Assembly (NCBI GenBank): GCA_025617745.1
Contig: CM046854.1
Span: 59,616,721-59,680,720 of the forward strand
Length of the DNA stretch: 64,000 nucleotides
Origin: Heliocidaris erythrogramma
Lineage: Eukaryota > Echinodermata > Echinoidea > Camarodonta > Echinometridae
Direction of reading: 5' to 3'
Position 1 is the first letter of the stretch. Each line of letters opens with the position of its first letter. Made by a program: the position numbers and the translations under genes. Below are positions 29,534 through 61,414 of this stretch, in pieces. The notes below the pieces were generated by a model that ran no database searches, was not told where the DNA came from, and was given only the letters and a program-made list of their open reading frames with translations.

Positions 29534-29597
29534 ATGTCTGTAATTTCCATCATACCGATTGTTGGATTCATGGGATTGCTCATCTGCCTTTTTCCTG
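29534..29597 (+). CDS. Ig/death-fold receptor, exon 1: signal peptide
   Basis: From ATG 29534 it encodes MSVISIIPIVGFMGLLICLF then P and the first base of Gly, ending at GGTAAGTT (phase 1). The 15-residue hydrophobic core without charges is a good signal peptide. I preferred this ATG to the in-frame upstream one at 29507 (MNLYGTLGN-) because it gives a compact signal sequence directly after the TATA box. The next exon in phase is the V-like Ig exon at 31187. Confidence 0.62.
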
Positions 29598-31186
29598 GTA
29601 AGTTCATATCGGACGACGACAAACGTGCAAAAGCCATGACAACTGTCAGAAAGCCTTTAGTATGCATTACTTTTAGGAGTCACAGGTCACATTTACACTC
29701 ACAGAATAAATGCACAAACTTTGCAGATATACACAATAAAGAATTTGAATCAACCTGACAAAAAACAGTTGTAACAACGTTATAAAAATATATTAAAAAC
29801 AAAATGACAAAAGTCCCATCACTTTGTGAAAAACTTTTGTTCATATTTGTAGACAAAAAATCTCTCTCACTTATTACACTGTTTGTACTTACAAAATTTG
29901 TGGTAAGCGAAAGAAACTTTTTACATATATGTTATTTCCTTAAAACATTTTAGCCTAGGGCCAAGTAGGGAGGTGTAGGTACACTCAAAGAAAGAAAGAC
30001 AATTTTTAATGCGCATCACATTAGAATTTCGTTCTTTGAATAAAATCATTATATTGAGGTTAAAAATCGAAGGGAAGAGCTTGCACAGGGTCCTGGGAGT
30101 GATTTTGCCTTTTGGGTACAAAGTACTGCCCCACGAGTGGCGGATCCAGGAATTTCATGTCGGGGTGGTGGCACGAGTCCGTAAGTTCTCTGACAAGGAA
30201 GTCCCTCAGTACTTTTCATTTTTGCGCAGGGGATTTTCCTTCAGTGAACCCTGAAGGAAAAAAAATGGGGAAAAAATGGGTGCTCCAGCATCCCGGTACC
30301 CGTGGATTCCAGGTCCAGTGGGTAGTACCGAAATAAATGGATGAATGATTCAGCAAACTTACTTTATTTTTGCAGAATTAAGATATTCCTCTAATGTGCA
30401 TCCTTGTTAATTGGCATTTCATCTACCTCGTAAGAACGGTGCCTCCCCCCGCCATCATAAGAGTACCCGTCAATGACCAGACCCACGCTACGCCACTCTA
30501 GGATATTCTTTTTATTATTATTTTAAAGTAATTATTATCTTTTTTATCCCTCGTTTAATACATTTAGATGCACTTTGAATCATAAATCATATTATTTTAT
30601 TTTCTATTTAACTCAGCTGGATTACTGCTTTCATGGATATTGCATGTTTTCTATTGAACAATCACAGACCTGGAGGAAGATTACTTTAGTCAAAACGGGT
30701 GTGTCATATAGAACACTTAAAATCATGGGCGAACTAGCTAGGACAAGTGGGCTGAATCCCAACCCCCTCCACTCCCATCCCTCCACAAGGATTGTTTAAA
30801 TTCCATATATTCTGGAAACCATCACCTCTTATTCGGGGATCGAGGTGCCCAAATTTGGAATTTATGTACATTTTCACTTTTAAAAAAGTGTCCAAATTTT
30901 CGCTAGCTTGCTTCGCTCGCTCTCAAAAAAAAAGACACTGGAAATATGATATTCAGTGGGAAAGGGCGTCAGCCTCTCCGCCCCCCCCCCCCTCCCCTCG
31001 CGAGAAGGTGCCCCTATACGCATATGCTTAAACTGAAGGTATATTATTTTAAGCATTCATTCATACCCTGCAAATTTGGATAATTCAAAATTGTTGTATT
31101 ACTCTGTTACTTATCATTTCCTTATTGAGGGCTGTTTCTAGGATGTAAATTGATATACGGAATTATTTAAATCTTCACTGATCTAG
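29598..31186 (+). other. intron 1 with degraded repeats
   Basis: It contains a GTGGCGGATCCAGG-type element end at about 30139 (related to 58831 and 41860), an A/T-rich stretch, a block near 30890-31020 (CGCTAGCTTGCTTCGCTCGC and a C run) similar to the repeats at 46300-46490, and the acceptor CACTGATCTAG. Confidence 0.45.
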
Positions 31187-31528
31187 GCATTGGTATATCT
31201 GAGCAGACTGTTGGCACAGAGCCACATATTCTCCTGGAGGTGGGAACAAGAGGTACTCTTCCATGTCCTATCCAGAGAAGATCCTACGGAGTACAGTGGA
31301 AAAGACAGAGGACATCCAACTTTGAGCTCCTTGTATCGCTTGACCTATACTTTGACGTCGGTGCAAGAGATGGGCCTGGTTATAAGGCAGGCTTGTTCAA
31401 TATCACAGATTACCACTCGCTGGTCATCAATGACGTCAAAGTGCAGGACGGAGGAATGTACTTGTGTACAGTCTCTGACTACGAAACGGGGAAACTCATT
31501 CTGAAATGGACACGAGTATCCGTGCAAG
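31187..31528 (+). CDS. Ig/death-fold receptor, exon 2: V-like immunoglobulin domain
   Basis: 342 nt, phase 1 to phase 1, about 114 residues: one Ig domain per exon. The key residues are in order: Cys in GTLPCPIQ, Trp in YGVQWKRQ, then FNITDYHSLVINDVKVQDGG and MYLC, i.e. the DxGxYxC signature of V/I-set domains, then a G-strand-like KWTRVSVQ. NIT is a likely N-glycosylation site. It follows the signal peptide directly, so it is the membrane-distal domain. The specific ligand is unknown. Confidence 0.8.
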
Positions 31529-33050
31529 GTGAGACAGGAGGGGTCGAATAGAGAATGAGATTTGATGTGAGGGGGAGAGGAAATTGTTCGAAAGAAATTA
31601 AGGTAGAGAGAGAGAGAGGGAGAGAGAGAATATGAAAATATGTACGATTTTATCTTTCTGCGTCACAGCATGCAATCGACGAAATCATTCGATAATTCAG
31701 GCTACTCTTAATCTATATCTTCAATTATAAAGATATTATTTCTGGGCTGAAACTATTTTTTTTTTGCTATTCCTGCACCGCAGGCTTGATACTATTTTAA
31801 AAGCAGGCTTGAATCGAAAAAAAAAATAATTGACAATTAAGTGACGTGATTGTATTGGTTCTTAAGCTCAGATAAAGAAGCCAAGCGCTTTCACGATGGG
31901 GGTGATTGCTTCATATACTCCCGACTGCAAACCATTTGTTTAAACAAAATATCATTTCATTTGTTTTACATGTTAAGCTTTTCATAAAATTAAAATAAAC
32001 ATTATTGGGATACCGATCATATTACGGATTCAAAATTAATATTAACATTCGCATTATCATGATTGCAGTGGATAGATATAATGTACTGTTTTGTCTGCTT
32101 TACCTTGACTGGACAGCTGCGTTGATAATTATCAGCAAAGTGATAGATCAACTAAAATTTCATGAAATATTGCATGCTCCACAGTTCGCTGTAACATATT
32201 TTGTGAACCAAAAAAAGATCAGAATTTCTCCTTATGGCGTGATAAACACCGAGACCGCAGTCAGATGTTGCAACATCTTACCTTATCTTTTAGAATTTTT
32301 ATAATATACTGTGTATTGGGTAGTTGGGGGTTTCTGTTCTACTCGTTCTATGAAAGATCAATGTTCATGTTTACTGTACATTTTTACATGAGTAGACACT
32401 CAGCTCACTCAATTTACTCATTAAATCCTGTACCATCAAATTATTTACCATCACCAGGGTGCAAAAATGGCGCATTGTATGGGTCACAGCCTTATTGTAA
32501 TGTCCCTGCCATGACGCACCTGGGTATAGGTTGCGTCATTTCAATGGACAGTGCATTATTCATCTTGTTCTGGGTCATTTTTTTTAAAAGTGTTTTTAAT
32601 GAAATTAATTTTGTTTGTTTGTTCTGCAGAAAATATATTTATATATCCACACCCCTCAGTGTATCGGATTTCAGTTTATATTTTATTTTATTTTATATTT
32701 TTTTAAATGTCATTTTATCTTTTATTCTATTTTAATTTCTTTTATTATATTATACGTGCGCCTTATACCGTATATAGTGTAGTTATGCGCTTTCTTTTAT
32801 TATCACGAGATTGAAACGTTAACATGTAGGTTTCAGGCATTGAATTTTTCTGCAACCATTCAATACTTCACCATTAAAAATTAAATCAAATAAATACTAG
32901 AAATTACGTTCAAATTTAATTTATATGAAACGCCCTATTGAGACTGATAAAATAAATTACTATTCTATTGCGACTACATCTTGTATTTGAATTTCCCTAC
33001 CACTGAAATTTATGATCAGCTCCTCGACCCTGCCTAGTCAATGGAACGTC
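31529..33050 (+). other. intron 2, first part; nothing coding supported
   Basis: AT-rich sequence with an AGAGAG microsatellite near 31605-31630. A 156-codon frame at 32265-32735 has composition like its AT-rich surroundings and no recognisable domain, so I do not call it. Confidence 0.35.
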
Positions 33051-33430
33051 CCCTAGTTATAACAAGGCTTTAATACACAAATACCAACCTCTACGAACCT
33101 TGAGATCTTCAACTTCTCATCTTTTGCAAGTTCCAATTTCAAAGAAATCGTGGGGGGATCGTGCATTTGCTCATTCGGGGCCAACTCTGTGGAATTCCCT
33201 TCCACAGAACCTGAAAACTTTGACATCAGTGGCTTCCTTCAGGCGCAACCTAAAAACGTATCTGTATAAGAGTGCCTTTTGACAGACATTCATTATTCTT
33301 CCAGTGTTAATAATTTTTACCTCTCATTCTTTTTGTATTAATTTGCTCTGGAGCGCCTTGAGCATCTAATCAGGATGGAAAGTGCGCTATACAAGTCACA
33401 TGTATTATTATTATTATTATTATTAATGAT
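33051..33430 (+). mobile_element. 5'-truncated LINE 3' end (CR1/L2-like) with (ATT)n tail
   Basis: It encodes the last ~60 residues of an RT polyprotein (RSSTSHLLQVPISKKSWGDR, GPTLWNSLPQNLKTLTSVAS, FRRNLKTYLYKSAF, stop). A short 3' UTR with GGAGCGCCTTGAGCATC and AAAGTGCGCTATACAAGTC follows, ending in an ATT microsatellite (33410-33425), as in L2/CR1-type tails. Confidence 0.78.
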
Positions 33431-33920
33431 TTTTACATTTGCAGTTGACGTGTTTTTACATTTGTGGTAACAGGTAAAGGGTCTTTCGATATTTTAAGGA
33501 TTTTAATGGTCAGGAAACCTCACACACACGCATACACACGTACACACACACGCATCTCATAATAACTGATCTTACATGGGTGCATTATGCAAGCAACGAG
33601 TTTTTACATTTTCGGTTGTCATGTTATAAAATTTGAGGTAAAAATGGGCATTTTTACATTTGCAGGCGAAATATTTTTACATTTGTGGTTAAACCGATTT
33701 TTAAATTTGTGGGCGATTTTTTTTTTTTTTTTTTTACATTTCTGGTTACTTTACACTTGTGGTTGTCATGTAATGACATGGTAGTTATTTTGACATTTGC
33801 AGGTGCAATGTTTTTACATTTGTGGTTATTTTTACATTTGTGGTTATTTTTACATTTGTGGTTATTTTTACATTTGTGGTCGATTTTTACATTTTTTGGC
33901 TCTACAGCCCCCCCCCCCCC
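33431..33920 (+). repeat. minisatellite of TTTTTACATTTGTGGTTA
   Basis: Variants of TTTTTACATTTGTGGT recur from about 33440. They become a regular ~18-bp array at 33805-33885 and are followed by a C run. This array lies in the long intron 2. Confidence 0.75.
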
Positions 33921-35109
33921 CCCCGAAAAACATAGTATCTGTATTTTGCACAAACTGAGATATTGACAATCTTATGTTTCTACCAAAGGCACTCGAAAAT
34001 CAAATATTTTTTAAGATTCCTTCATTATGTAGTTATAGTCTATCTAGCTGTCTATTTTTGCATACATTTGTTTTGTTTTTAAGATATTAATAAAAATATA
34101 AATACTTTGTGGTTTCCCCTTGGAAAAGCGCAGTATCTACAAGTGAGTGAGAAATAAGGGTTGATTCGAATCCTTATAATTATTGATTAACCAAACAATA
34201 ATGCCTTGGTACCCATTCATTATGTACGTTTATATACCTTACTTTGATAATCTTTCCTAATCCTGTCATCTGATTGGTTGAAAGTGAAGGCGTGTTTTTA
34301 ACCATGCCCTCAAAAATGAACGATGCCCACGGGCAAAGTTAAATGTTGCTGCGATCCCCATTGGTTTACGTGTAAAAAAATCCTTTGTGCGAGCGCGAGG
34401 GCGGATACAATAATCGCCGTGCGATTTGATTGCTAAATTTAGAAGACCGTCGATCTTCTGTCTCGATTTATCTCCGATTTTTGTTTAGTTTATTAACAGT
34501 TTGATGATAATTTTTAAATGTGAGGACCCCATAAATGGTTTGACGCTTACCTGACTTTGTTCGGTATATAAAAGATAGATTGACTGCTTTAACATTTTAA
34601 TATTTACATTTCATTTCTTTTCTTCCTTCTTCATTTCTTTTTAAGATAGATGTTTTCCCTTTCCTTTTTGAAAAGTATTTTACTGTATTCCTTTGAAGTA
34701 TTCTTATTTTCTTTTTAAAAAAATCAAGATGCTATGTCATTCCTTCTTTGAAAGGTATTTTATTGTAATCATTTTGGTATAGCTCAGCATGGGGCTGCTT
34801 CTCCTTTCATCTTTTTTCTTACTTTTTTTTAGCTGCTGTCTGTTCTTAAGTATGTTTTATGTGCAAGGTATATTACTCTTTACATCTCCCTCGAAGGGTT
34901 TTATGGCCAGTTATTTATCTTTTTTATTCTGTACTTTTTAATTATTCTTTTTTGACTTGATATCGTTTTTTTTTTCTTCTACTTTTCTTGTTCATGTGTT
35001 TCTGTTTCATGTTTATTTCTTACGATGTATGCTGTTTTGTACGCTGTGACAGGTTTTCCCTACCCCAGTCCCCACCCCTTTCAATTTTCCTTACGATTTA
35101 CATCTTAAC
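33921..35109. other. intron sequence, T-rich; possible 5' UTR of the following LINE
   Basis: 34600-35100 is T-rich with partially repeated phrases (GAAAAGTATTTTACTGTATT, GAAAGGTATTTTATTGTAAT). It may be the LINE 5' leader. No exon is seen. Confidence 0.35.
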
Positions 35110-35129
35110 GGTTATGATTATCTTGATCC

Positions 35130-36188
35130 ATGGCGGTTGATGACATTCCTGGCTATGACTTAACCAATGACGAATTTTTAGATGCCTTTCAAACATTACT
35201 GCATTCCCATTATATCAATCCCGATAGTAATTTTGTCAATCATATGATCACTGCTCTAAATACTTATTATAAAGATTTTGAAGTCCCTTTTGATGATAAC
35301 GAACATGAGCAAGTTAACCCATCTTGTTACTAGACTGAAAATCAAGTTGTTCCTCACTTCTCAGACCCAAATGAGACTGTGTTTTCTTTGTTCCACACTA
35401 ACATCAGAAGCCTGAATAGTAATTTTGATTCCTGAAGTAATCTTCTTAACAGGTTTAGGTTAAATTGCTCCGTAATTGGCCTAACCGAAACTTGGCTCTC
35501 TGACACACCTCATTCATTATACCCCGTGGTTATGACCTAATAGTGAGTAATAGACCCAACAGATCTGGAGGAGGGGTGGCTTTGTATATTTCTTCTGATT
35601 TCAATTTTAATAATATAACTCTTTTAAACAAAATTAATGATTCGATTGAAACACTTTTTGTTGAAATTGATTTTGTAGGTAGAAAAAATATCGTAATTGG
35701 ATTAGTATACAGACCTCCCAATTCCAGTCACAATGATTTTTTGTTAAACATTCAAAACATTATCTCAAACCTATCCTACGTGGTAAGGATTGTTTTTTTT
35801 AAGGGGGATTTTAATGCCAATTTGTTGAAATACGACTCCGATGCCTTTATTCATGAATGTTATGAAACGTTTCTCTCGTCATCATTTGTACCACTAATAT
35901 TTAAACCAACTCGTATCTCAGAAAAATCTTCCACTCTAATTGACAACCTATAATACAAACATGCATCCTTTTCCACAAGCTGGAGTTGTAGTCTCCGATA
36001 TCACGGATCACTTCCAAATATTTGCGAACTTCCCCATTTTACAACAAACTCAACAACCCTCTAAAATTTATTCTAGGAATTTTTCTGAACGCAATATTAA
36101 CACTCTCAAAAACAGATTAGAGGAACTGGATTGGAGTAGTTTATATAATATTACTGAAGTTAATAGTTGTTTTGATGGGATAAATTAA
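35130..36188 (+). pseudogene. LINE N-terminus and AP endonuclease
   Basis: It reads FSLFHTNIRSLNSNF, SVIGLTETWLSDTP, RSGGGVALYISSDFNF, IVIGLVYRPPNSSHNDF, FFKGDFNANLLKY, FKPTRISEKSSTLIDNL and SDITDHFQIF. These are the complete series of AP-endonuclease blocks, spread over frames interrupted by stops and frame changes near 35330, 35430, 35540 and 35950. Confidence 0.78.
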
Positions 36189-36372
36189 CTACTTTATTTA
36201 ATGAATGTATCCCGATTAGAAAAATATATCATCGCAGTCGAAAAAGAACCCCCAAAACGCCTTGGATTACGGCAAGCTTACTCAGATCTATAAATAGGAA
36301 AAATAATCTTTATTTAAAATATAAAGCGAAGCCGACTGAAAGTTCCAAATCTAAATATTTAAATTACAAAAA

Positions 36373-37012
36373 TGTGACCCTCCACGACAAAACGACCAAT
36401 AAGTCGGAATTTTTCTAATTTCAGCATAGTTTGAAAGCTTAGATTCTTAGCTTTAAAATGATATATAACTTGTGTTGTATAGGCTAAGCAAACCCTTATA
36501 AATTACAGTGAGAATGTCCGAGTGTCAGACAATAGAAAAAACGGGCTCCAAAGAAGAGTGACCATTTAAGAGCGCCTAATCTGTGTCCTATTGTTTGTCG
36601 CACAAAAGGTTGAGTCAAAACTCCAAAGCCTACACTGTGAAGTACTCATTGGATTGGGTTGAAACTTTTCATACCTTTAGAATAGATATATTTCTTTCTT
36701 TCTGTAAATTTTGAATATCAGACAGTGCATAGTTTTTGAGCTATACCAGAAAACCGATGTGAAGTACGATCCCAGCAAGCTGACTCACAAAGTTTGAATA
36801 TGCAGGAAAAAATGGTCATTTTGAACGAGAGTAAAAACATATTTCAGCATGGTATTTTACCCCGAAATTTTGTCAGATGGTAGATTAATGAATTAACTTT
36901 CAGAAAATACCAAAAACTTAAACTTGAAATTTCCACCCAAACAACCTTTTTCAGCTGTTTACTCTAAAACTCCCATTGCGACTTATTGGTCGTTTTGTGG
37001 TGGAGGGTCACA
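36373..37012. mobile_element. 640-bp TIR element (TGTGACCCTCCAC ends) inserted in the LINE
   Basis: The ends TGTGACCCTCCACGACAAAA and its inverted counterpart (GACTTATTGGTCGTTTTGTG ... GAGGGTCACA) form terminal inverted repeats of about 33 bp. No transposase frame is present. The flanking LINE sequence (TTACAAAAA / AATACACTC) resumes on each side. The target duplication is unclear, so the superfamily is left open. Confidence 0.75.
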
Positions 37013-37084
37013 AATACACTCACAGGATTATTACGTAGAGAAAAAAGAAATTATTTTCACGCCAATTTATTCACTGTAAAATAA

Positions 37085-37630
37085 ATGCAAAATGTACATG
37101 AAAAAAAAATAATGAATGAAGTTTTAAATAAACATGATAGAAAAGACACAGTTTCTAAGATACAAATCGGTGATAAAACTGTTAACAATTTACAAGAAAT
37201 TTCAGATCACTTTAATAAATATTTTGTGGAGTTGGGTCCAAATTTAGCTAGCAAGATACCCGACAGTGATAAAAATTTTCTTGATTACTGACAAAACCCT
37301 AACCCTAATTCTATGTTTTTTTGCTCCTGTAATTGAAGGTGAAATTCTTGATATGGTGAATAACTTCACAAACAAACGTAGTTGCGGGCACGATGGTACT
37401 GATAATTTCATTACGAAGAAAACTATTTCATGTAGTATTGAACCATTTACTTATGTAATTTGTCTTTGAGAACAGGCGTTTTTCCAAATAGAATGAAATT
37501 AGCTAAAATAATACCCATTTTAAAGAAAGGCGATCCTCTTGTACTATCAAATTACGGGCCAATATCTTTATTGACTACATTTTTCAAAATATTAGAAAAA
37601 TATTGTTTTTTTTCTCGAACAGTAGTTTTT
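37085..37630 (+). pseudogene. LINE reverse transcriptase, N-terminal part
   Basis: It reads KIQIGDKTVNNLQEISDHFN and KYFVELGPNLASKIP (pre-RT), KRSCGHDGTDNF, then FPNRMKLAKIIPILKKGDPL and SNYGPISLLTTFFKILEKY (RT blocks 1-2), until interrupted at 37631. Confidence 0.78.
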
Positions 37631-39257
37631 AGCTCACCTGAGCCTAAGGCTCGAGTGAGCTATTGCGATGGAAATTTGTCCGTCGTCCGTCGTGCGTCGT
37701 GCGTCGTCCGTTAACTTTTTACATTTTCATCTTCTTCTCCAAAACCCATGATCGGAATTCAACCAAACTTGGTAGGAATCATCCTTAGGGGTAGGGGACC
37801 CAAAGTTGCTAAAATGGTACATGTGGCCCCCAGGGGGGGGGGGCCAGGGGGAAGGCCCCCAATTGTAGAAGCTATGTAAATTTCAAACATCTTCTTCTCC
37901 AGAACCAGGCATAGCTCAGACTTGGTATTGTGTATGGAGATACCTCTATAGATGAAGAATGAATGTTGTTCAGGAAATTTCTCTGAGTGGCCCTATAGGG
38001 GCCCTGTGGGGGTAACATACTGGAGGGGGGGCGCTGCCAGGCAAAATGTACATTCTGATCTTCTTCTCCAAAACACATGATCGGAATTCAACCAAACTTG
38101 GTAGGAATCATCCTTAGGGGTAGGGGACCCAAAGTTGCTAAAATGGTACATGTGGCCCTCAGGGGGGGGGGGGGCCCAGGGGGAAGGCCCCCAATTGTAA
38201 AAGCTATGTAAATTTCAAACATCTTCTTCTCCAGAACCAGGCATAGCTCAGACTTGGTATTGTGTATGGAGATACCTCTATAGATGAAGAATGAATGTTG
38301 TTCATGAATTTTTTTTCTGGGTTGCCCTATAGGGAGTCTGTGGGGTAACATACTGGAGGGGGGGGGCGCTGCCAGGCAAAATGTACATTCTGATCTTCTT
38401 ATCCAAAACACATGATCGGAATTCAACCAAACTTGGTAGGAATCATCCTTAGGGGTAGGGGCCCAAAGTTGCTAAAATGGTACATGTGCCCCTCAGGGGG
38501 GGGGGGGGGGGGGCCAGGGGGAAGGCCCCAATTGTAGAAGCTATGTAAATTTCAAACATCTTCTTCTCCAGAACCAGGCATATCTCAGACTTGGTATTGT
38601 GTATGGAGATACCTCTATAGATGAAGAATGAATGTTGTTCATGAAATCTCTCTGAGTGGCCCTATAGGGGCCCTGTGGGGGTAACATACTGGAGGGGGGG
38701 GGCGCTGCCAGGCAAAATGTACATTCTGATCTTCTTCTCCAAAACACATGATCGGAATTCAACCAAACTTGGTAGGAATCATCCTTAGGGGTAGGGGACC
38801 CAAAGTTGCTAAAATGGTACATGTGGCCCCCAGGGGGGCCCAGGGGGAGGGCCCCCAATTGTAAAAGCTATGTAAATTTCAAACATCTTCTTCTCCAGAA
38901 CCAGGCATAGCTCAGACTTGGTATTGTGTATGGAGATACCTCTATAGACGAAAAATGAAAGTTGTTCATGAATTTTTCTCTGGGTGGCCCTATAGGGAGT
39001 CTGTGGGGGTAACGTACTGGAGGGGGGTGGGGGTGTGGGGCAAGTTGTCCGCCATCCATAAACTTTTTACATTTTCAGCTTCTTCTCCAAAACCCATGAC
39101 TGGAATTTAACCGAACTTGGTAGGAAGCTCAGACTTGGTATTGTGTATAGAGATACCTCTATAGATGAAGAATGAAAGTTGTTCATGTGCTAGAGAGAAC
39201 ATGCACCAGATGTGAATTGATCCACCTCAGGTGAGCGTCGTTCCCCCTGGGGCTCTT
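37631..39257. mobile_element. non-autonomous element with ~330-bp tandem array, inserted in the LINE
   Basis: The left end AGCTCACCTGAGCCTAAGGC-TCGAGTGAGCT is itself palindromic. It is followed by GTCCGTCGTGCGTCGTCCG and by about four units of ~330 bp (AGAACCAGGCATAGCTCAGA at 37901, 38233, 38570 and 38897; spacing 332, 337, 327). The right end CACCTCAGGTGAGCG ... GGGGCTCTTG echoes the left inverted. Each unit contains a G run and AAAATGGTACATGTGGCCC. Minus-strand frames over it merely translate the array. LINE coding resumes at 39258. Confidence 0.78.
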
Positions 39258-39817
39258 GTTTCTAAATCAGAATGAAATTTTACCCGACTGTCAATTTGGT
39301 TTTAGAAAAAGTCATAATACATCACAAGCAATCTTGTCTTTCAACAACAAAGTTGCAACCTCTATTGACGATGGTACTCACACAATAGGAATGTTTTTAG
39401 ATTTTTCTAAAGCGTTCGATAAGATCGACGACAGAATTCTTTTACATAAACTGTCCCATTATGGAATTAGAAGCATCGTTTTAGATTGGTTTTTTAACTA
39501 TTTCTATGAACGCCAAAAATACGTTTCCATCGAAAATAAGATGTCAGACCTAAGAAATATTGCTTGTGGTGTACTTCAGGGGTCCATTCTTGGCCCATTG
39601 CTGTTTATTTTATTCATCAACGATTTCCCTAGATCATCGAATCTACCTTACCCAATCTTAATAGATAACATTCAAATACACCAGGTTACTACAACAAAAC
39701 TTTTAGGATCACTAATTGATGACAAACTTTCATGGAAGCATCACATTGATAACATATGTAAGGTTATTTCTAGAAATATTGGCATAATTAACAAACTAAA
39801 ATGGACATTGTACCGAT
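39258..39817 (+). pseudogene. LINE reverse transcriptase, central and thumb part
   Basis: It reads DCQFGFRKSHNTSQAILSFN, MFLDFSKAFDKIDD (catalytic Asp block), GVLQGSILGPLLFILFINDF, then directly LIDDKLSWKHHIDNICKVIS (thumb). The YADD block between them is missing, so an internal deletion has removed the second catalytic motif. The frame ends where a SINE begins. Confidence 0.8.
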
Positions 39818-40085
39818 GTGTTGGCTCAGTCAGTAGAGCGTCTGCCTCACTATCGGGAGGTCGTGGGTTCGAACCTCGGCCGCGTCATACCAAAAGACGT
39901 TAAAAGATGGGAGTTGCTGCTACCTTGTTTGGCGTTCAACAATTGAAAGGATAGAACAACGTCGATCTGGCGCTGCACAGTGGCTGCCGGGCCCACGATC
40001 AATTGGGCAAAAAGAATTTTCATTTCGGTTAATAAAATTTGGAATGGACTCTAATTGGATTATTATTATTATTATTATTATTATT
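39818..40085 (+). mobile_element. tRNA-derived SINE with (ATT)n tail
   Basis: The tRNA-like head has TGGCTCAGTCAGTAGAGCG (A-box arm), CTGCCTCACTATCGGGAG, and GGGTTCGAACC (B box, 39865-39875). A body and a 3' ATT repeat (40060-40085) follow. It is inserted at the end of the LINE copy. Confidence 0.75.
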
Positions 40086-44873: not shown

Positions 44874-45215
44874 TCATCCAAGAATGTATTGGAAAATATA
44901 TACACCCTGGAGCTTGCACTATCAACGTCGATTCAACATCAAACCTTACCTGCCTTGTGGAGGGATACTATCCGGACATCGAGCTCTTCTTCCTGCATGG
45001 ATCTGAAAAAGTGGCATCCCTTGAATATCTAGAATGGAACAACACAGTTGGGACGAAAAATAAGCATGTATCAGTTAGTATCAGCGTAAGTGACGAACCC
45101 TACCAATGCGTGGCCTCAGCATTGCCAGGAATTGATGGAAACAGAACCGTTTCGGTCTTTGTCCAACATTTCCAAGCAAATTCTCAACCACACCATGCTG
45201 CATCAGTTGCTATTT
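44874..45215 (+). CDS. Ig/death-fold receptor, exon 3: second Ig domain, C1-like start
   Basis: 342 nt, phase 1 to 1, the same size as the first Ig exon. The codon split across the intron reads G|TC (Val), continuing IQECIGKYIHPGAC, then NLTCLVEGYYPDIELFFLHG, then HVSVSISVSDEPYQCVASAL and a G-strand-like RTVSVFVQHF. Cys in NLTC and in YQC are the expected disulphide pair. LTCLVEGYYPDI resembles the B-C strand signature of C1-set domains (L-x-C-L-V-x-G-F/Y-Y-P), although the C-strand Trp is replaced by Phe. NLT, NNT and NRT are possible N-glycosylation sites. This is the membrane-proximal domain. Confidence 0.75.
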
Positions 45216-46839: not shown

Positions 46840-46911
46840 CTGTACTTACGGTTCTTGGAGCATGCATTACCATAGCTGTAATTTTCAAACGTTATCGTCG
46901 ATATGGCAGAG
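46840..46911 (+). CDS. Ig/death-fold receptor, exon 4: transmembrane segment
   Basis: 72 nt, phase 1 to 1. It completes Ser across the junction and reads VLTVLGACITIAVIF then KRYRRYGRG. Together with the end of the previous exon (AASVAI) it gives about 22 hydrophobic residues followed at once by a basic cluster KRYRRYGR, a clear stop-transfer signal. This fixes a type I orientation with the Ig domains outside. Confidence 0.75.
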
Positions 46912-47513: not shown

Positions 47514-47567
47514 TTCGGTGTAGTGGACATGGCTTTACGCACATACCCACGGAGACGCAAACTGAAG
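47514..47567 (+). CDS. Ig/death-fold receptor, exon 5: juxtamembrane linker
   Basis: 54 nt between TTTACTGTTTAG and GGTGAGAT, phase 1 to 1, encoding VRCSGHGFTHIPTETQTEG. A short, polar, Thr-rich cytoplasmic linker with no motif I recognise. It is supported by signals and phase. Confidence 0.55.
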
Positions 47568-48228
47568 GTGAGATATCATTAAAAATCTTGGATATAGTCT
47601 TCAAAGAGAAACATTGCAGGTCTATCAATTAATCAATTATTCCTTTGCCATGTTCGTGAGATAATACGCTTAGTGATCTCTACGATTCAATAAACATTTA
47701 CCCGATGTAAAAAAGGGGAAGAAAATTAAAAATTTACTGGTATAGGCTTTTTTTTTCTAGAAAATTTTAAGATTGTTTCTTAATGAACGTACATATATAC
47801 CTGTATATCACATCGATTCAGCAAAGCTGGAGGTGATAATTACTTTGAAGGTTAAAATTGTAACCAATCATTAATATTTTTTCATTGTCATTTGATTTTG
47901 TTGTAAATCTAAGGAGAAGTAATAAAAACCTACATATAGAGCCAAATGTAAATTTTCAATTTCGTTTACAAATGCTTTAATTTCACGTGACAGTAACATT
48001 TTCATTAAGTATAACCATGTAGCTCCATGGGATAACAATCTACACACCTATGTGAAACGAAGACTTGATTAGCAATGGCCCATTTACGTATCACCACAAA
48101 TTCTTGTTATATGAATGAATGTATATTTTAATCATTTAAAAATGATAAAGAGAGTGTCTTTTCATTATACTCTTCAGTATCGTGTAGAAGTGGTATCTTT
48201 TTGTTTACATCATTTGCAATCCCAAAAG
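47568..48228 (+). other. intron 5; left part of the duplicated A-B module
   Basis: From about 47745 it is homologous to 54257-54778 (shared TTTTTTTCTAGAAAA, CACATCGATTCAGCAAAGC, AAGGTTAAAATTG-AACCAATCATT, TTACAAATGCTTTAATTTCAC), showing that the duplication included intronic sequence. Confidence 0.6.
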
Positions 48229-48486
48229 AACCTATATCTAATCTTGAACTGTGGACATTGGTGACAAAGGCTAAAGACAAAAACGCATTCGGGAAACTGA
48301 GAAAAGCTATAGGTCTTCTCAGACGTCTTCCGGAAACTGCCACATCAAAATTGCTCAAGGTCAACGACTTTTACGAAAGTCTCTGCACGTGGAAAATTCA
48401 AACGCCTTCCCACTCTAATCAGCGAAACATGATATATACTGCCTGTTGTAATGTCGGAATGTCCGACATTACCATGGAACTCAAAG
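48229..48486 (+). CDS. Ig/death-fold receptor, exon A1: death-fold-like module
   Basis: It encodes about 86 residues: NLELWTLVTKAKDKNAFGKL, LLRRLPETATSKLLKVNDFY, ESLCTWKIQTPSHSNQRN and ACCNVGMSDITMELKG, ending at AAAGGTATGT (phase 1). Late blocks resemble a death domain (core Trp, then L...VGxxDIxxEL). It is the paralogue of exon A2. At the position of A2's acceptor (TTTCTAG) this copy has TTGCAAT, so that AG is lost; the nearest in-phase AG is at 48227-48228 (CAAAAG), which I used. Either a shifted acceptor is used or the exon is skipped; symmetric phase keeps the frame either way. Confidence 0.5.
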
Positions 48487-52642: not shown

Positions 52643-52671
52643 TATATACATATATATATATATATATATAC

Positions 52672-53756: not shown

Positions 53757-53787
<31 letters not shown>

Positions 53788-53909: not shown

Positions 53910-54221
53910 ATATCTGTCAAATCCCGCTGCGTTCTTTTCTCGAGTTTGTCCACCCTGAGTGCTCCAAGACAGAATGGCAAGCCAATATAGATCTCATTTT
54001 ATGGGAAATCAACAATACGACGAAAATAATTGACCTCTTAATAGCCCTGGAAATAGATCATGAAAAAGTTTCTACAGCGAATGAAGAGGGGAGAAGTGTG
54101 ATGATTGGAATGGCACGGAATGAACTATCGAAATGGCTGAAAGGAGATTTCGACATAAACCCCATGATTACCTTGAGTTTGACATTAGAAGATCTTCACT
54201 GCGAGACAAACTTCTTTAAAA
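53910..54221 (+). CDS. Ig/death-fold receptor, exon B1: death-fold-like module
   Basis: 312 nt, phase 1 to 1, starting after ATTTGCATCATAG and ending at AAAAGTAAGT. It reads DICQIPLRSFLEFVHPECSK, IDLILWEINNTTKIIDLLIA, ARNELSKWLKGDFDINPMIT and TLEDLHCETNFFK without a stop. It is paralogous to B2. Helical, with a Trp in the fifth-helix position (ELSKWL) as in death domains. The equivalent of B2's inner AG is changed to CG here, so the upstream acceptor is needed. Confidence 0.58.
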
Positions 54222-54778
54222 GTAAGTTCCCGTAATTTCTTACGGGATCAACGTAACCTGTTTTTTTTCTAGAAAAGTTGACGGTTGTTTCTAAATGACG
54301 TACATTTATATCACATCGATTCAGCAAAGCCCATGAGACAAAGTGAAAGGCAAGAGAACGAATCGTCAGTACGTAGTCACATGTCTCTTAAAAAGAGCCA
54401 TGTCCATGTATTTGTTTTGGCGACACCTCTGGAAGCGATGTATACTTTTAAGGTTAAAATTGAAACCAATCATTATTTGAGATATGTTGTAAATCTAACA
54501 TAGATAAGTAACAGAAATTTACTTCTGATAGAGCCAAAGCTAAATTTTCATTTTCGTTTACAAATGCTTTAATTTCACAAAAAAAACAGTGTGATTAGGT
54601 ATAAACAATCTACTCAGTATGTTTGTGAAAAAAGACTTGATTATCAATGGCCCATTTACGTATCACCGCAAATTCTTCTTATATGAATGAAATATATTAA
54701 ATTATAAATAGAGTGTCATTTCATTATACTCTTCAGTATCATGTAAAAGTGGTATCGTTTTGTTTACATCATTTCTAG
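54222..54778 (+). other. intron B1-A2
   Basis: 557 bp, homologous from 54257 onward to intron 5 (47745-48228). This marks the junction of the two tandem module copies. Confidence 0.6.
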
Positions 54779-55039
54779 TCCCAAGAGGTTCTATATCTAA
54801 ACTTGAACTGTGGAAATTGGTGACAAAAGCCAAAGCAAACAACGCTTTCCGGAAACTAAGAAAAGCTTTAGGCAGTCTACTGTCGGAAACTGCCCAATTA
54901 GAATTGCTCGAGGACGACCACTATTACGAGAGTCTGTGCATGTGGAAAAGTAAAAAGCCTTCCCTCTCTTATCAGCGAAAGATACTATTTTCTACCTGTT
55001 GTAATGTCGGAATGACCGACATTGCCAGGGAACTCAAAG
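54779..55039 (+). CDS. Ig/death-fold receptor, exon A2: death-fold-like module
   Basis: 261 nt between ACATCATTTCTAG and AAAGGTATGT, phase 1 to 1, 87 residues: SISKLELWKLVTKAKANNAF, LLEDDHYYESLCMWKSKKPS and ACC-like STCCNVGMTDIARELKG. The final block (CNVGMTDIARELKG) is close to the last-helix consensus of death domains, in which an x-G-x-x-D-L-A-x-x-L pattern follows the Trp helix. Clear paralogue of A1 with an intact acceptor. Confidence 0.65.
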
Positions 55040-55164: not shown

Positions 55165-55235
55165 AGAAGTATCGTAGTCGAGTGGTCTAAACACTTGACA
55201 GGAGAGGCGAAGGTCGTGCGTTCGATCACCGGCAT
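55165..55235 (+). mobile_element. tRNA-related sequence (SINE head)
   Basis: GTAGTCGAGTGGTCTAAACA resembles a class II (Leu/Ser-type) D arm with an A box. GTGCGTTCGATCACC is a B box 45 nt later. Stems are imperfect and no CCA-type end is seen, so it is a derived element and not a tRNA gene. Confidence 0.5.
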
Positions 55236-55288
55236 GTCACTTGAATAAGGCATTTTATCTACATTGCTCCTCTCCAACCACGTGTTAA

Positions 55289-55534
55289 CCCTTTCAATCC
55301 CAAATTATGGTGAAATGTTCAGATATGTTCTGTGATTTTTTTTCTGCACTATTTTCATACTAAATATGACAGAAATTTTTTAAAAAGTGGAAAAAAAATG
55401 TAGTGTTAATTAAATCACTGAATAGGGACTCAAAAGTCCCATCAGACAGGAAAGGGGTGAAGAATGCATGGCATTTTTTTACAAACAAGCTTAGTCTGAT
55501 CTGGGACTGAAAAGTCCCGTCGGCCTTGAAAGGG
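55289..55534. mobile_element. 246-bp piggyBac-type MITE (TTAA|CCCTTTCAA)
   Basis: TTAA at 55285-55288 and 55535-55538. The ends CCCTTTCAATCCC and, inverted, CCCTTTCAAGGCC match over the first 9 bp. GGGACT..AAAAGTCCC palindromes occur inside (55425-55440, 55503-55518). CCC ends next to TTAA are typical of piggyBac relatives. Confidence 0.7.
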
Positions 55535-55855
55535 TTAAATGGGTACCGGGTAAGATGCGAAAGTCATTGTAGTTTATTTAGCATTGTGACTGTCTGTAAA
55601 AAAGCGTCTGGCTGGAATGCTCTAGAGCAATAGAATTTATTGCTAATGTTGTGGGTGTATAACACGCGCACAGTGCTGATCAAACTACAGTGACTTTCGT
55701 ATCATACCCACTAACCATTTTACACCTGGGTGGAGAGAAGCAAGATATTGTGACGTGGAGAGAAGTCCCTTTTTACCTTGTTTACAATGAGATTATCAGT
55801 TGTTGTTGGTTTTTTGTATCTGGAATGTAATGTAAATCGGTATTTTGCTTTATAG

Positions 55856-56173
55856 CTATTTATCTAATGGTTCCTTTCTTGTTTTTAACTCACTGTTCAG
55901 AGTTCGTTATGGCCTCCCGTATACTAGCCATTGTCGATATAGAACACATTTTATGGGAAATCAAGGACACGAAGAAAATAACTGAACTCTTAAAAAACCT
56001 GGACATTCATCATGAAGCAGTTGCTAGAGCAAATGGAAAGGGGAGAAAAGTGGCGCTTAAAATGGCACGGAAGGAACTATTGAAATGGCGAGATCGAAAT
56101 TTCGAAATAAACCCTATAGTCACTTTGAGTTTGACGTTAGATGATCTTGGGTGTGAGACAAACTTCTTTAAAA
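55856..56173 (+). CDS. Ig/death-fold receptor, exon B2: death-fold-like module
   Basis: It starts after TTTTGCTTTATAG by homology with B1 (318 nt); an inner acceptor (ACTGTTCAG, exon from 55901, 273 nt) is also phase 1 and stronger, so alternative acceptor use is possible. Common part: VMASRILAIVDIEHILWEIK, ITELLKNLDIHHEAVARANG, ARKELLKWRDRNFEINPIVT and TLDDLGCETNFFK, ending at AAAAGTAAGT. The sequence is mainly helical with the Trp helix (ELLKWRD). Paralogue of B1. Confidence 0.62.
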
Positions 56174-56949
56174 GTAAGTTTTCTGAACGTATTACGGAGT
56201 AAAGTGTGAAAGTCTTTATCAAAGTAGCTTAGAAATTATGATGATGGTTACGATAGATACTTTATATCTTAAAGAATTCTGACAGAAATACTTTATGTTT
56301 CAATACAATGTTCGTATAAAGCATCACCTACATCAGTATAGTATTTATACATTTGGATACCCAATTCCCAATTTTAAGCACAAGGTCAGTAGTTTGATAG
56401 AATTACGTATGTTTATCTTCATTTTATTGTTGCCTTCATAATTTACATTATATATTCGATTCATTAGGTTTTTATGTTTTAAAAAAATATCAGTTTTAGG
56501 AGCACGAAATCCTTATTTGATATACGTCTACATATAATTATTATTTCGTTTGCAATTGATTATTAGGTTTGAAAATGATGGTGAGTTGCTCATTACTTTA
56601 ATACAGATCCTCATCATGTAGATATACTTCTGGCTTTTTAGGGGCTTACGGGGGCGATTCTCCCTCCCAATGATATTTTTTTTTAAACATAAACACTATA
56701 AGTATGATAGGAAGAAAATTATAAAGAATTTTCAGACACTTGACACCAAACTACAGCAAAATCTTTGAGTTTTGGAGATAAATGTAGAGCTCTCGGGAAA
56801 ATGTGAGAACTGCTCCAACCCCGCCCCACACACAGAGACACGCACCCTCACACAACATGTGCCCATTTGGGGAATGTGCTCTTTTAAAGTACTTGTCTTA
56901 AGATAAATCCGGTATTTACGATCCGTTTTCTCGTGCCTTATTCAATTAG
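56174..56949 (+). other. intron B2-C; no feature recognised
   Basis: AT-rich, with a short CACACAGAGACACGCACCC stretch near 56826. Ends with CTTATTCAATTAG. Confidence 0.4.
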
Positions 56950-57231
56950 TACCACTGAGTCAGAAGGAAGATATAGATGAAGATGAAATTATGGACATAT
57001 GTTGTCGGATGTCTAAGCAACGCTACTCGTATTTGATAGAAGCTATTCGAGATACTCATGGAGAAGAAGTACCATATCCCATGGAGAGGTTTGTCGATGA
57101 GGACATCGTTTGTCTCTTCAACACCTTTGATATGCTCGTTGACTGGTGGGAAGATGAAGAGTGCACTAATTATGAGAAAAGAAGCAAACTTCAAAATGCC
57201 GTCAAGGCTACTTCACAGAGAGATCTCAAAG
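56950..57231 (+). CDS. Ig/death-fold receptor, exon C: death-fold-like module
   Basis: 282 nt, phase 1 to 1, 94 residues: PLSQKEDIDEDEIMDICCRM, RYSYLIEAIRDTHGEEVPYP, MLVDWWEDEECTNYEKRSKL and QNAVKATSQRDLKG. MLVDWW...KLQNAVKATSQRDLKG fits helices 4-6 of a death domain (LLxxWxxx...LxxALxxxGxxDLA). Acidic at the N-terminus. Confidence 0.65.
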
Positions 57232-57653
57232 GTGAATAATGCAATAGATATATCCCTCTTTATCATTTTCTATTGGACAGTGAGAACAACAGTTACTGTG
57301 CGATAATTTTTTCACTTTAATCAATCATTTTGTTGTTTGTGTTTGTTTTTTTGTATGTTTTTTATCAATTCATCATTTCAATTGCAAACCATAAGGTGTG
57401 ATCAAAGTTTATTTAATAATGGAGGAATGAGCACTGAAAAAAAGATTAATGGAGAAATGTAATACTTTTGCTTTCTGATGTAGACAGATCGATGCATATT
57501 ATATACATGTATAAATATTTAAATATGCGAACAATTAAATCCAATTCCTGATTTATACAGGACAAATAAATCATTACAAAAATTTTACCTTGAGTTGTAA
57601 AATGATTTGACTCAATAAATTACTAGTTTGACTTTATTGTCCAATTCCTCAAG

Positions 57654-57890
57654 CAACAGATGCTAAGTGGCCTCCTGATGATGAGCTGAGAGTAATTGCG
57701 ATTTTGCTCTCTTCGACAACAATGGAACAACTCTGCTCCAAGCTTTGCATTAAACGCCCTCCTTATGAAGCTAACGAGGATGAACGATTTCAGGCACTCA
57801 CCGAGTGGAGAGACAATCATGCCTCGTCAAAAAATCTGAAGGAGAAACACAATGAGCTTTTCTCTGCACTTGAAGAGATCAAACAACCAG
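57654..57890 (+). CDS. Ig/death-fold receptor, exon D: death-fold-like module
   Basis: 237 nt between CAATTCCTCAAG and CCAGGTAAGT, phase 1 to 1, 79 residues: PPDDELRVIAILLSSTTMEQ, LCSKLCIKRPPYEANEDERF, QALTEWRDNHASSKNLKEKH and NELFSALEEIKQP. The order (LRxIAxLL, LCxKLxI, ALTEWR, LFSALEEI) is that of a death domain with a Trp in helix 5. The most death-domain-like of the set to my eye, with E. Confidence 0.68.
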
Positions 57891-58189
57891 GTAAGTGCCA
57901 CCCTTTTGTAAGACCTTTTCGACGAAAAAAAAAGAGGAATATACGCCGGCGTTTACTTTTTCACCCATTGTATTACATTTTATACACTAATGGTTTTGTT
58001 TTTTTTATTTTTGATTTGTTTTGGGGGTATTTTCATTTTTTGTTTTGTTTTGTATGTTTGGTTGATTTGTGTGTGTTGGGGGGGGGGGGAGTTTTGTTCT
58101 TTGGTAGCTTCTTAGCTTTACATGCTTTAAATTTATAACTTGACAGAAATAACTTAACAATTGATCATTTTCCCCCAATTAAACGATAG

Positions 58190-58483
58190 GCCTGTTGTCT
58201 CATACCAAGGGTCAATTAGTCTACAAAGCTGAACTAGTGGACTTGGCGTTTCACCTGTTCGCTCAGGACCTTCTTCCTTTTGCGGAGGCTTTGGGTATCA
58301 GTGCTGATAGACTCATTCCCTATAAATGTGCGTTTCGTCCTTCGGACATGAAGAAGGGTACCATTGGCCTTGTTTGTAAGCTCTTCCGTGAAGTTTTCAA
58401 AAAAGGAACTGAACAAAGGTCCCATTTCTGCAATCTTCTAAATCAGATGCCATATCCAAACGTATCTGCAGTTGGAATGCTTG
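58190..58483 (+). CDS. Ig/death-fold receptor, exon E: death-fold-like module
   Basis: 294 nt, acceptor AAACGATAG, donor CTTGGTATGT, phase 1 to 1, 98 residues: LVYKAELVDLAFHLFAQDLL, PFAEALGISADRLIPYKCAF, GLVCKLFREVFKKGTEQRSH and FCNLLNQMPYPNVSAVGML. LVDLAFHL...PFAEALGIS matches death-domain helices 1-3 (LxxLAxxLxxDWxxLAxxLGIS); the Trp of helix 5 is replaced in KLFREVF. Confidence 0.68.
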
Positions 58484-58830
58484 GTATGTGGCAGTGGCAT
58501 TTTATTTCTTTAATTTATTACAATTGATGTTAATAATATTGATTACTCTTTCCTTCTCTTTACAATATTTTGATTCATACAGTTTATAACATCTTTCTCT
58601 AGGTTTTATTTATTGAATTTGGCGATCATGTTGTTTCACAACCCTCTATTTCTAGCCTTCTCAAACAGCACCCACTCCCCTGTCTTTAACACCTCTAACC
58701 ATTTTTGCAGACTGTCCATCCAGAGTATTCTTCTTTACTCTTCTTTACTGCCAGTGCAAGTTTTCCAAACCTCTTTACGTAGGAAGTGTCGTAATATCAT
58801 CCTTCTGATGACTGTCTATATATATTAAGG

Positions 58831-59032
58831 CAGGGGCGGATCCAGGATTGAGTAAAAGAGGGGAACAAAAATGAAAGTTTGTGAAAAGGTAGACCCGTAT
58901 TTTTTTGGTCTCGCCAGCTTCTCGAAAAATAATTCCCTGACAAGCAAAAAAAGAAAAAAAGGTCTTCACTCCAAAAAGGGGGGGGGGGCACGGGCCGGTT
59001 ATGCCCCCCCCCCCCCCCTGGATCCGCCACTG
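58831..59032. mobile_element. 202-bp hAT-like MITE (CAGGGGCGGATCCAGG ends)
   Basis: The left CAGGGGCGGATCCAGG and the inverted right CAGTGGCGGATCCAGG match 15 of 16. The flanking 8-mers TATTAAGG and CACTAAGG agree at 6 of 8, compatible with an aged 8-bp duplication as in hAT elements. Interior has G and C runs. Confidence 0.65.
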
Positions 59033-59558
59033 CACTAAGGATAAGACCAATCGATTCAGCGATTCAGCGATTGGTCTCCACTTGCTGAACAATCCAGCTT
59101 GCGCACAAAGCTATGTCGACGATCAATTCTCAATTATGCGCGTCCCGGGCCAGAAGCTCAGCGCATTTACGCTTTCTGGAAGCCCTTTACATTCAATCGC
59201 ATGAACCTCTTCTGTGCAGACAAAAGGAGTTCGTCCAAGCTTTGCGATTTTTCTGATATTACGGCGTCTAGGTTGCGTCCGGGTTCACCGAGTATAATAT
59301 AGTTGATTTCAAGTAATTTGTTATATACCTGCGTGATAACCTGATGAGTGCAGATCGAAAAGCTTCGTTATCATGTCTCTTTTTCGTGCCATATTGAAAT
59401 ATGAATATTAGGAAAAATAGACAGGAAAAGAGAGAAAGAGGGTAGAAGAATAGGAAGAGAGAGAGAGAGAATAAAAATATGTCATTGAAATGGTTGAGGC
59501 CCATAGAAAACTGAGAATTTCATCATTTTGAGTATACAATAAGCATTAAAAAAATTAA

Positions 59559-60116
59559 CCCTTTCAAGACAATTGACCACATTTTTTTGTTTGGCTCAAT
59601 AACCCTTGAGCCAGAGCTCAAAAAGCATATCTGAGGCATGAGTAGAAAGATTTAGAAAATGTCCGCACACTCTGTGTCTATCTGTGTTGCATGACCACAA
59701 TGCGTTTGACGCCAGGAATTTCAAAAACGAGAAAAAGCCCCAAAATCATCGCCTATTATTAAACTTGGCAAGGTTTTCAATTTTCGACAAAATTCCCAAC
59801 CATGCATATTCAGAGTTGCCAACTGTTCCGGAATATGTATGAGGTGGATTTCAAGGCTTTCATGACAAGTGAATAGCGGAGAGCATGGTTATTGTTGTCA
59901 TGTTTTCTCTCACAAGCATTCAACCGTTGCGTAATTCACATTTTAATTTTGACCTCATGCATATTCCGGAACGGTTGGCATCTCTGCATATTGCCTTCAA
60001 CGAGACTTTACACCCCACCAGAACCATGCAGCACCAAAAGAAAAATACCATTGTTGCAAACCTGAAGGACAGAATGTGATCAACCGAGCCCCCAAATAAT
60101 TCCTGTCCCGAAAGGG
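59559..60116. mobile_element. 558-bp piggyBac-type MITE (TTAA|CCCTTTCAAG)
   Basis: TTAA at 59555-59558 and 60117-60120. Left CCCTTTCAAGACA; right inverted CCCTTTCGGGACA. Internally, sub-terminal copies of CATGCATATTC / GAATATGCATGAG occur inverted. Same TIR family as 55289-55534. Confidence 0.7.
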
Positions 60117-60594
60117 TTAACCTAACGGTGCACAATTCAGATCATACATAGCTTCTATTTAATCTAGTTGGAAAGGGAAAGAAGAATAGGAGGGAAAGAG
60201 AGGAGGCGAAAAGAGAACATGAGTAGGAAGAAAGAGAATCAGGGATAGAGGTGATATTAAATGAGATTAGGGATAAAAGAGGGAGAGAGAAAGAGCAGCT
60301 TGAGCGAGAGAGAGAGAGAGGGGGGGGGGGGCAAAAGAAATAACTTATTGTTACAAATATACGGTACGGTGATTAATTATAAACAGAGCTAGCGCCCGTG
60401 CATGTCTATGGGCTGCTTTTGCTTGTATAAAAATGTATATATTCAGTTATTATTCTGAGGTATGCGCAGTTTGTTTTTACTTTATTATATCTTTTTACGT
60501 TTTCATCCTTCAGTCAATAAACTTTTAAATAATTGATATAGAGATTCTTCTCAGTTTTATGGTACATGTACATTACAGTACTATTGGAAGGGGT

Positions 60595-60835
60595 AACCTT
60601 GCTAGTCATAAGGACTGCTATCCATAACGCGTGACTAAATGAATAGCGGATTTGTATGAATAGCTGCAGTCCTTATCAATAGCGAGCAAACCATAGACAA
60701 ATTACCTCGCTATTCATAAGGAGCTCCCTTCGTAAGGAACACTATTCATAAGGACCGCTATTCATAACTCGCGTTAATTGAATAGCGGTGTTCTATGAAT
60801 AGCGGACCTTATGAATAGCGAGCGGACCCGCGTAC
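60595..60835. repeat. foldback cluster of CTATTCATAAGGA / TCCTTATGAATAG
   Basis: About ten copies of CTATTCATAAGGA and its inverse alternate with GTAAGG and CGCGTTA phrases. 60707-60820 can form one long stem-loop with sub-hairpins. This is probably a small non-autonomous element. Confidence 0.65.
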
Positions 60836-61046
60836 TGGAAAGATGATATTGATGCTTAAAGGAATCTGACACTATTTTTTTTTATTAGGGCGGGATCTTT
60901 TTTTCTTTCTTTTTTATAGTTGATCGTCAATTGCTAAGACTCATTACTCACATACAAATGGCCTAATTAGCAATGATACATATTTTGCTGGTGTTGTTGT
61001 TATTTGGGGTAATTTTCATTTTCTTGCCCTTGAATTATGCACACAG

Positions 61047-61414
61047 GACAATGCACCAAAGGGAACATACCGCTTGCATTCCTTAATGGTATTCTCCAGA
61101 AATTGGATCCTTCCAAACGTTCCATCCTTCACAAGCTGTTTGTAGATGCAGAAGTTTTAAATGGAGTGCATAAGATCCCGCAAGGAGTTCAAGATTGGAA
61201 TAAAATGACAGATGCGGTTTGTGAAAACCTACACATCTGGATAGAAGAATGGATACAACAAATGAAGAGCAAGGAAAGCGTTCTCTGTTCTGCAGAAACA
61301 GCCAAGAAGCACAAGGAATTTAACGACAAGCTTGTAGATCATGGCTTTTACGACCTAGCACGGGAGATCATGATTTGTGAGCAACAACTAATAGCTGTTA
61401 AACATGCTACTTAA
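61047..61414 (+). CDS. Ig/death-fold receptor, terminal exon F: death-fold-like module and stop
   Basis: After TTATGCACACAG it encodes GQCTKGNIPLAFLNGILQKL, KRSILHKLFVDAEVLNGVHK, VQDWNKMTDAVCENLHIWIE, ETAKKHKEFNDKLVDHGFYD and LAREIMICEQQLIAVKHAT, ending at TAA 61412-61414. DWNKMTDAV...IWIEEWI...FNDKLVDHGFYDLAREI carries the death-domain pattern W-x-x-L ... W ... L-x-x-x-G-x-x-D-L-A-x-x-I, the best single match of the array. The acceptor has a short pyrimidine tract but the phase fits exon E. Confidence 0.7.

Follow-up and report, generated by a model that had tools for sequence, protein, structure and literature searches.

The subject of this analysis is a predicted receptor gene on the + strand of a 64,000-nucleotide stretch of the genome of the sea urchin Heliocidaris erythrogramma (assembly GCA_025617745.1, contig CM046854.1, forward-strand positions 59,616,721 to 59,680,720), referred to here as the window. 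The gene occupies positions 29534..61414 of the window and appears to encode two immunoglobulin (Ig) domains, a single membrane span and a cytoplasmic string of eight modules that resemble death domains to different degrees.

Exon structure of the locus

An original prediction, made from the sequence alone, had proposed thirteen + strand exons with usable splice signals that join in phase 1 throughout into an open frame of about 1,067 codons. The gene was rebuilt in this form: AG precedes each of exons 2-13, GT follows each of exons 1-12, all 12 junctions are in phase 1, and the joined frame runs over 1,083 codons to a TAA with no internal stop, the slight difference in length arising from the choice of exon ends. 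The proposed order of signal peptide, V-like Ig, second Ig, transmembrane segment with a basic stop-transfer sequence, linker and eight modules was recovered in the joined frame, and this exon model supports the proposed single-pass receptor with two Ig domains and eight cytoplasmic modules, the membrane topology being assigned by eye.

Exon 1 (29534..29597) contains the start codon and a signal peptide, MSVISIIPIVGFMGLLICLFP, whose hydrophobic stretch was identified by eye, and ends in phase 1 at a GTAAGT donor. It is followed by a V-set-like Ig domain (Ig1, exon 2, 31187..31528) and by a second, C1/C2-like Ig domain with the motif CLVEGYYPDIEL (Ig2, exon 3, 44874..45215), both of which are also found in paralogues. 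Exon 4 (46840..46911) encodes the single transmembrane helix and the basic stop-transfer sequence KRYRRYGR, and has a counterpart with 58% identity in one of the nearest paralogues (P3); exon 5 (47514..47567) adds a juxtamembrane linker of 18 residues. The remaining exons encode eight modules of six types in the order A-B-A-B-C-D-E-F, namely A1 (exon 6, 48178..48486), B1 (exon 7, 53910..54221), A2 (exon 8, 54737..55039), B2 (exon 9, 55901..56173), C (exon 10, 56950..57231), D (exon 11, 57654..57890), E (exon 12, 58190..58483) and F, which includes the stop codon (exon 13, 61047..61414; TAA at 61412-61414). A1 and A2 share 60% identity and B1 and B2 share 59%, which marks the A-B pair as the tandem duplication of a two-module unit.

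To estimate how often such exons occur by chance, open stretches of 220-420 bases flanked by weak splice-like sites were scanned and sorted by phase class. Between 29.0 and 61.5 kb, 11 distinct phase 1-1 donors were counted on the + strand and none on the - strand, compared with 6 and 3, respectively, in the first 29 kb of the window; the other eight phase classes had 2 to 7 donors each on the + strand of the 29.0-61.5 kb region. By itself this excess is modest support for the gene model, and the stronger proof is comparative: the exon types repeat elsewhere in the genome with their order and strand kept.

A clustered gene family with conserved exon order

Searches were made in the assembly to which the window belongs (1.06 Gb in 26 contigs, labelled C2, C5, C7 and so on, with the window on C2). 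This genome has a strong match to bindin (PF02084, E 2.1e-68), a sperm protein of echinoids, in keeping with its sea urchin origin. The tail query matched at least 59 places (57 of 280 candidates scored) and the ectodomain query at least 134 (134 of 275 scored), the window's exons counted in both cases; these numbers are lower bounds because only part of the candidates was scored. Single-module searches gave 41 places for F, 44 for B (both window copies counted), 36 for D and 54 for C, again including the window. The modules are clustered on C2 (4.9-5.5, 12-13.4, 48.3-50.4 and 59.5-60.4 Mb), C5 (19.7-20.1 Mb) and C7 (20.0-20.7 Mb), with lone sites on C21, on C17 and on C2 at 56.6 and 71.6 Mb. 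When adjacent hits of unlike type on the same strand and no more than 15 kb apart were taken as neighbour pairs, the order Ig1-Ig2-A-B-C-D-E-F was kept in 197 of 200 pairs, and the B1-A2 step of the window gene is itself one of the 3 exceptions; in 200 label shuffles the in-order fraction averaged 0.50 and reached 0.57 at most.

Hits were also assembled into chains with a 45 kb joining rule, which may merge or split genes; diverged exons escape detection as well, so that a chain is not a verified gene. An Ig exon and at least one module were combined in 60 chains, and an Ig exon and at least three modules in 36. Of the 41 F exons, 31 are preceded on their strand by an Ig2 exon no more than 60 kb away (none was found in that range for the other 10), and 25 have an E exon within 20 kb.

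The three nearest paralogues (C2 59.53-59.58, 60.21-60.23 and 60.37-60.41 Mb) keep the exon order, and no stop was found in their 23 aligned exons (8, 7 and 8), which were chosen as BLAST alignments and are therefore biased toward open ones. In the 20 non-terminal exons a phase 1 GT donor stands exactly at the aligned end in 18 and 3 bases downstream in 2, both of them D exons. A tree of 16 F sequences groups the window gene with the three C2 paralogues (support 100/99). The second of these, P2 (C2:60.22 Mb), lacks an open D exon in the interval from C to E, and the genome search with D gave no match there, indicating that loss of a module can leave the neighbouring exons open. A more distant member on C7 carries Ig1, Ig2, C, D, E, an extra death-domain-like exon and F inside one 10 kb stretch. 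This extra exon lies between E and F (C7:20427001-20437000, about 8038-8427 of the reverse complement) and by eye is coiled-coil-like and then death-domain-like; its hhalign probability against death domains was 25%, from one sequence, and it had no Pfam Death match. Module content thus differs between clusters.

These data bear on whether the locus holds one gene. The long introns between Ig1 and Ig2 (13.3 kb) and between A1 and B1 (5.4 kb), together with 22 module chains in which no Ig exon was detected, are what would be expected of two adjacent genes, the first for an Ig receptor with a membrane span and a short tail and the second for a cytosolic scaffold of several modules. Nevertheless, the exon order conserved across the family makes this arrangement very unlikely; in addition, all junctions are in phase 1, the transmembrane and linker exons run into A1, and the C7 paralogue packs both Ig exons and modules C to F into 9 kb. 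It is also highly improbable that the window gene is a degenerate member of the receptor family or a decoy that does not signal: the missing D exon of P2, stops in some family hits and 37 Ig chains without detected modules would agree with it, but the window gene is open over its whole length with all splice sites present and the 23 paralogue exons examined are all open.

Ig1 and Ig2 exons that are 56-81% identical to those of the window gene occur in chains where no A-F module was found, on C6 (50.2-52.4 Mb), C17 (0.09 Mb) and in parts of C2 59.4-60.3 Mb, and on C11 (20.5 Mb) Ig1 occurs alone, likewise with no A-F module found. Such module-less chains could be paired, decoy or otherwise signalling receptors, or their tails may have gone undetected.

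Among close copies, the ratio of nonsynonymous to synonymous substitution rates (dN/dS) had per-exon medians of 0.50-0.91 and ranged from 0.25 to 1.76 in single pairs, a pattern that points to relaxed or mixed selection on the protein. Domain-wide positive selection was not seen, the per-exon medians being below 1. The window gene is no lone oddity but belongs to a large family that is clustered in tandem and probably evolves fast.

Ectodomain and tail modules

In a Pfam scan of the window's exons only Ig1 passed any cut-off (V-set and ig families; for V-set 31.8 bits, cut-off 26, E 1.8e-7). A profile search of the Protein Data Bank (PDB) with Ig1 returned MXRA8, OBCAM and JAML as best matches, with CD4 and V domains of T-cell receptor alpha ranking lower (among the best 60 of 102 matches, E up to 0.001). 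In an alignment of seven rows, from which the C7 row was left out, Ig1 is most variable at residues 39-47, 51-59, 90-108 and 9-15, numbered along the exon product; compared by eye, the first three ranges roughly correspond to the C'-C'' and FG loops of V domains, which are ligand-binding loop positions.

Ig2 carries a motif, LTCLVEGYYPDIEL, resembling a C1 constant domain. All 8 family members compared are matched at E up to 1 by both C1-set and Ig_3 of Pfam; the window copy reaches 14.2 bits with C1-set (cut-off 21), and Ig_3, also below its cut-off, fits as well. The PDB profile search gave weak matches to antibody and MHC constant domains. C1-set Ig domains are unusual outside jawed vertebrates. 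A search of the genome with C1-set found 22 places, none of which is an Ig2 exon of the list obtained with the ectodomain query. A true C1 domain in Ig2, and with it a V-C1 receptor, was dropped as unproven given the score below cut-off, the equal fit of Ig_3 and the absence of Ig2 exons from the C1-set search. Clusters of C1-set Ig domains above the Pfam cut-off were observed on C5 (36.01-36.05 Mb) and C2 (29.9-31.1 Mb), apart from the listed Ig2 exons.

The modules were compared with 30 death-domain stretches from the same genome, some of them nearly identical to one another. With deep family alignments, the hhalign probabilities, which are single pair comparisons uncalibrated against any database, were 92% for A (40 columns, in the C-terminal half only), 87% for D (64 columns), 86% for F (78 columns, from a 16-sequence family), 46% for E (71 columns), 32% for C (42 columns) and 21% for B (58 columns). 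In all six types the aligned region keeps the register of the death-domain profile, and reversed modules scored below 1%. None of 100 block shuffles, in which short pieces stay intact, and none of 60 shuffles of the Death side equalled or exceeded the true score of A, B, D, E or F; for C, 1 of the 100 and 2 of the 60 did so. A hidden Markov model built from the genome's own death domains and run over six-frame open reading frames (ORFs) of at least 30 residues in the window matched only A2 (E 6.2e-5) and D (E 0.0036) at E up to 1. With the general Pfam model (PF00531 Death), the best match was also module A, with 13.6 bits and E 0.07-0.13 in the window (A1 included); within the family it reached E 0.0016, and 4 of 5 A members matched at E up to 1; one E family member matched DEATH_SH3BP4 (E 0.16).

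Several observations weigh against a death fold in the tail. None of the modules scanned reached the curated Pfam Death cut-off of 22.6 bits (window exons; family members of A, B, D, E and F; for C the copy in the window and a single one from C7), and PF00531 had no match among the D, E, F and B family members. Single members scored as well or better with surely unrelated families: one A member with a flavivirus capsid model (E 0.0009), 2 of 7 D members with HEPN (E 0.002) and 1 of 12 B members with VapB (E 0.0005). A first hhalign comparison with shallow alignments gave 1.8% for F, a score matched by 11 of 200 column shuffles, and 4% for B (1 of 200); on going from shallow to deeper alignments these values rose to 86% and 21%, E went from 21 to 46% and C from 34 to 32%. 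The module types are hardly alike, the best pair being A-D at 10%. No death domain emerged when PDB profiles were searched with A, B, D, E and F; B was matched best by a designed helical repeat (2.4e-5). The single-sequence AlphaFold model of E is all helical, with a mean confidence score (pLDDT) of 62 that is too poor to use, and Foldseek with this model found no match below E 1, its list being noise. A search of nine exon products against NCBIfam found no match at E up to 0.1. At the level of the family, the 37 Ig chains mentioned above count against the proposed receptor reading.

Taken together, these comparisons uphold the original proposal of death-domain-like modules best for A, D and F, which are predicted with good confidence to be death domains; E is probably one as well, and B and C are likely but less certain candidates. 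A doubtful alternative accepts the gene and holds that most modules adopt a helical fold that is specific to the lineage and distinct from the death fold, genuine or decayed death domains being limited to A, D and F. The low values of B, C and E, the shuffles that reach the score of C, the sub-cut-off Pfam scores and the poor mutual likeness of the modules would suit this alternative, whereas the common register of all six types, the failure of reversed modules and the clean block shuffles of every type except C argue for a shared death fold.

In the genome as a whole, at least 137 death-domain places were found (150 of 338 candidates scored), on many contigs and chiefly on C6 and C21, many of them clustered; death domains are strongly expanded in this genome generally.

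Short motifs in the 810-residue tail comprise one TRAF6-like and two TRAF2-like matches, unremarkable for this length. Three YxxL/I sequences (357, 562 and 716) are spaced too widely for an immunoreceptor tyrosine-based activation motif (ITAM), which needs a closely spaced pair, and the tail contains no inhibitory counterpart (ITIM). In the ten exon ORFs scanned, Pfam gave no match to TIR, thrombospondin, ZU5 or caspase.

The window also contains sequences resembling mobile elements, all recognized by eye. An ORF at 11216-11956 (-) combines GDVETNPGP, which we take to be a 2A-like motif, with a zinc-finger-like stretch and is probably the start of a non-LTR (long terminal repeat) retroelement; reverse-transcriptase-like or endonuclease-like ORFs lie at 9825-11180 (-), 22832-26631 (+) and 35504-39903 (+), and a Tc1/mariner-like transposase fragment at 6967-7473 (-). 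A short repeat is present several times in the Ig1-Ig2 intron (37759-39066, -), in copies that are similar to one another and have ORFs resembling HSFFIYRGISIHNTKSELCLVLEKK.

Proposed function and comparison with known systems

Based on the available evidence, the locus probably encodes a member of a clustered, fast-evolving family of echinoid single-pass receptors, with a V-like and a second Ig domain outside and a series of divergent death-domain-like modules, arrayed in conserved order, inside; the tail would seed death-fold assembly. The family most likely comprises innate or self/non-self receptors. The V domain would bind a surface ligand, either microbial or self/non-self, and this binding would cluster the receptors and gather many death-fold modules at the membrane. 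The tail modules, with their mixed and partly alternating net charges (A1 +7, B1 -9, A2 +8, B2 +2, C -11, D -4, E +4 and F about -1), may present several death-fold surfaces per chain and so provide a covalently joined nucleus for the polymerisation of soluble death-domain adaptors, followed by kinases or caspases. The output would be inflammatory or cell death.

A more tentative proposal, possible at this stage, is that the germ line of sea urchins encodes dozens of V-type Ig receptors as a repertoire, each with a tail in which different death domains are strung together covalently. Such a tail would be a ready-made signalosome seed within one polypeptide, tethered to the membrane, with module number and content varied by gene and cluster and the array-less ectodomains acting as counter-receptors or decoys.

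A non-immune role, as a developmental, adhesion or dependence receptor that uses its death domains in the manner of UNC5, is unlikely. The UNC5 netrin receptors have Ig domains outside, thrombospondin repeats, a single membrane pass, ZU5/UPA and one death domain, so that their Ig-Ig-membrane-death layout resembles that of the window gene, and the profile likeness of Ig1 to MXRA8, OBCAM and JAML fits such a role. However, the large number of clustered, divergent copies and the relaxed dN/dS values fit a role in immunity or allorecognition better than one in development, and the window gene differs from UNC5 in the absence of thrombospondin and ZU5 matches, in its eight modules of six types and in its large clustered family. 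The paracaspase MALT1 likewise unites death and Ig domains in one protein; it is soluble, with an N-terminal death domain, Ig domains and a caspase-like domain, whereas the window gene has a membrane span and no caspase match. Receptors of the IL-1R/TLR type differ in their cytoplasmic TIR domain, which was not matched here, and ITAM/ITIM Ig receptors in the tyrosine motifs that the window tail lacks.

Death-fold signalosomes are usually assembled from separate proteins with one or two death-fold domains each, and sea urchin immunity is known mainly for expanded TLR, NLR and scavenger receptors. Ig receptors are not known to combine more than one type of signalling domain, nor are the tails of the Alr proteins of Hydractinia known to have a death-domain array. 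The Alr allorecognition family, with 41 genes in one complex and V-set and I-set Ig domains, resembles the present family as an invertebrate set of V-set Ig receptor genes (PMC11999971). A gene of the sponge Dysidea avara, listed in an invertebrate immune-response gene set, also combines Ig domains with the death fold; the excerpted text describes one CARD and no array, and states neither family nor topology (PMC6208332). Oysters have lineage-specific HEPN-Ig-DED-TRADD-N proteins in expanded families, some with WD40 or cGAS parts, which share Ig repeats and the death fold with the window gene and differ by HEPN and TRADD-N; they have a DED-TRADD-N pair instead of an array, and a membrane span does not appear in the portion of the article available (PMC8195603). 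Amphioxus TNFR-caspase and other receptor/death-pathway hybrids share the fusion of receptor and death pathway, with TNFR and caspase, as excerpted, rather than Ig and a death-domain string (PMC2575513). The sponge, oyster and amphioxus genes therefore join recognition-type with death-pathway parts, and none of them, as far as the excerpts extend, is a multi-module string.

Echinoderm Ig receptors with death-domain arrays were not found in the open-licence literature, among the matches listed and judged by titles and abstract openings, a scope outside which most subscription papers on sea urchin immunity and apoptosis fall. If the proposed reading holds, up to eight death-domain-like modules per Ig receptor would represent a new wiring of recognition to death-fold signalling and would add an Ig-based arm to the immune receptors of sea urchins. 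It would also raise the testable question of whether a covalent death-domain string can nucleate adaptor polymers with no separate oligomerisation step. In comparison with known systems, what appears to be new here is the string of modules and the scale of the family, Ig receptors with death-fold signalling being already known.

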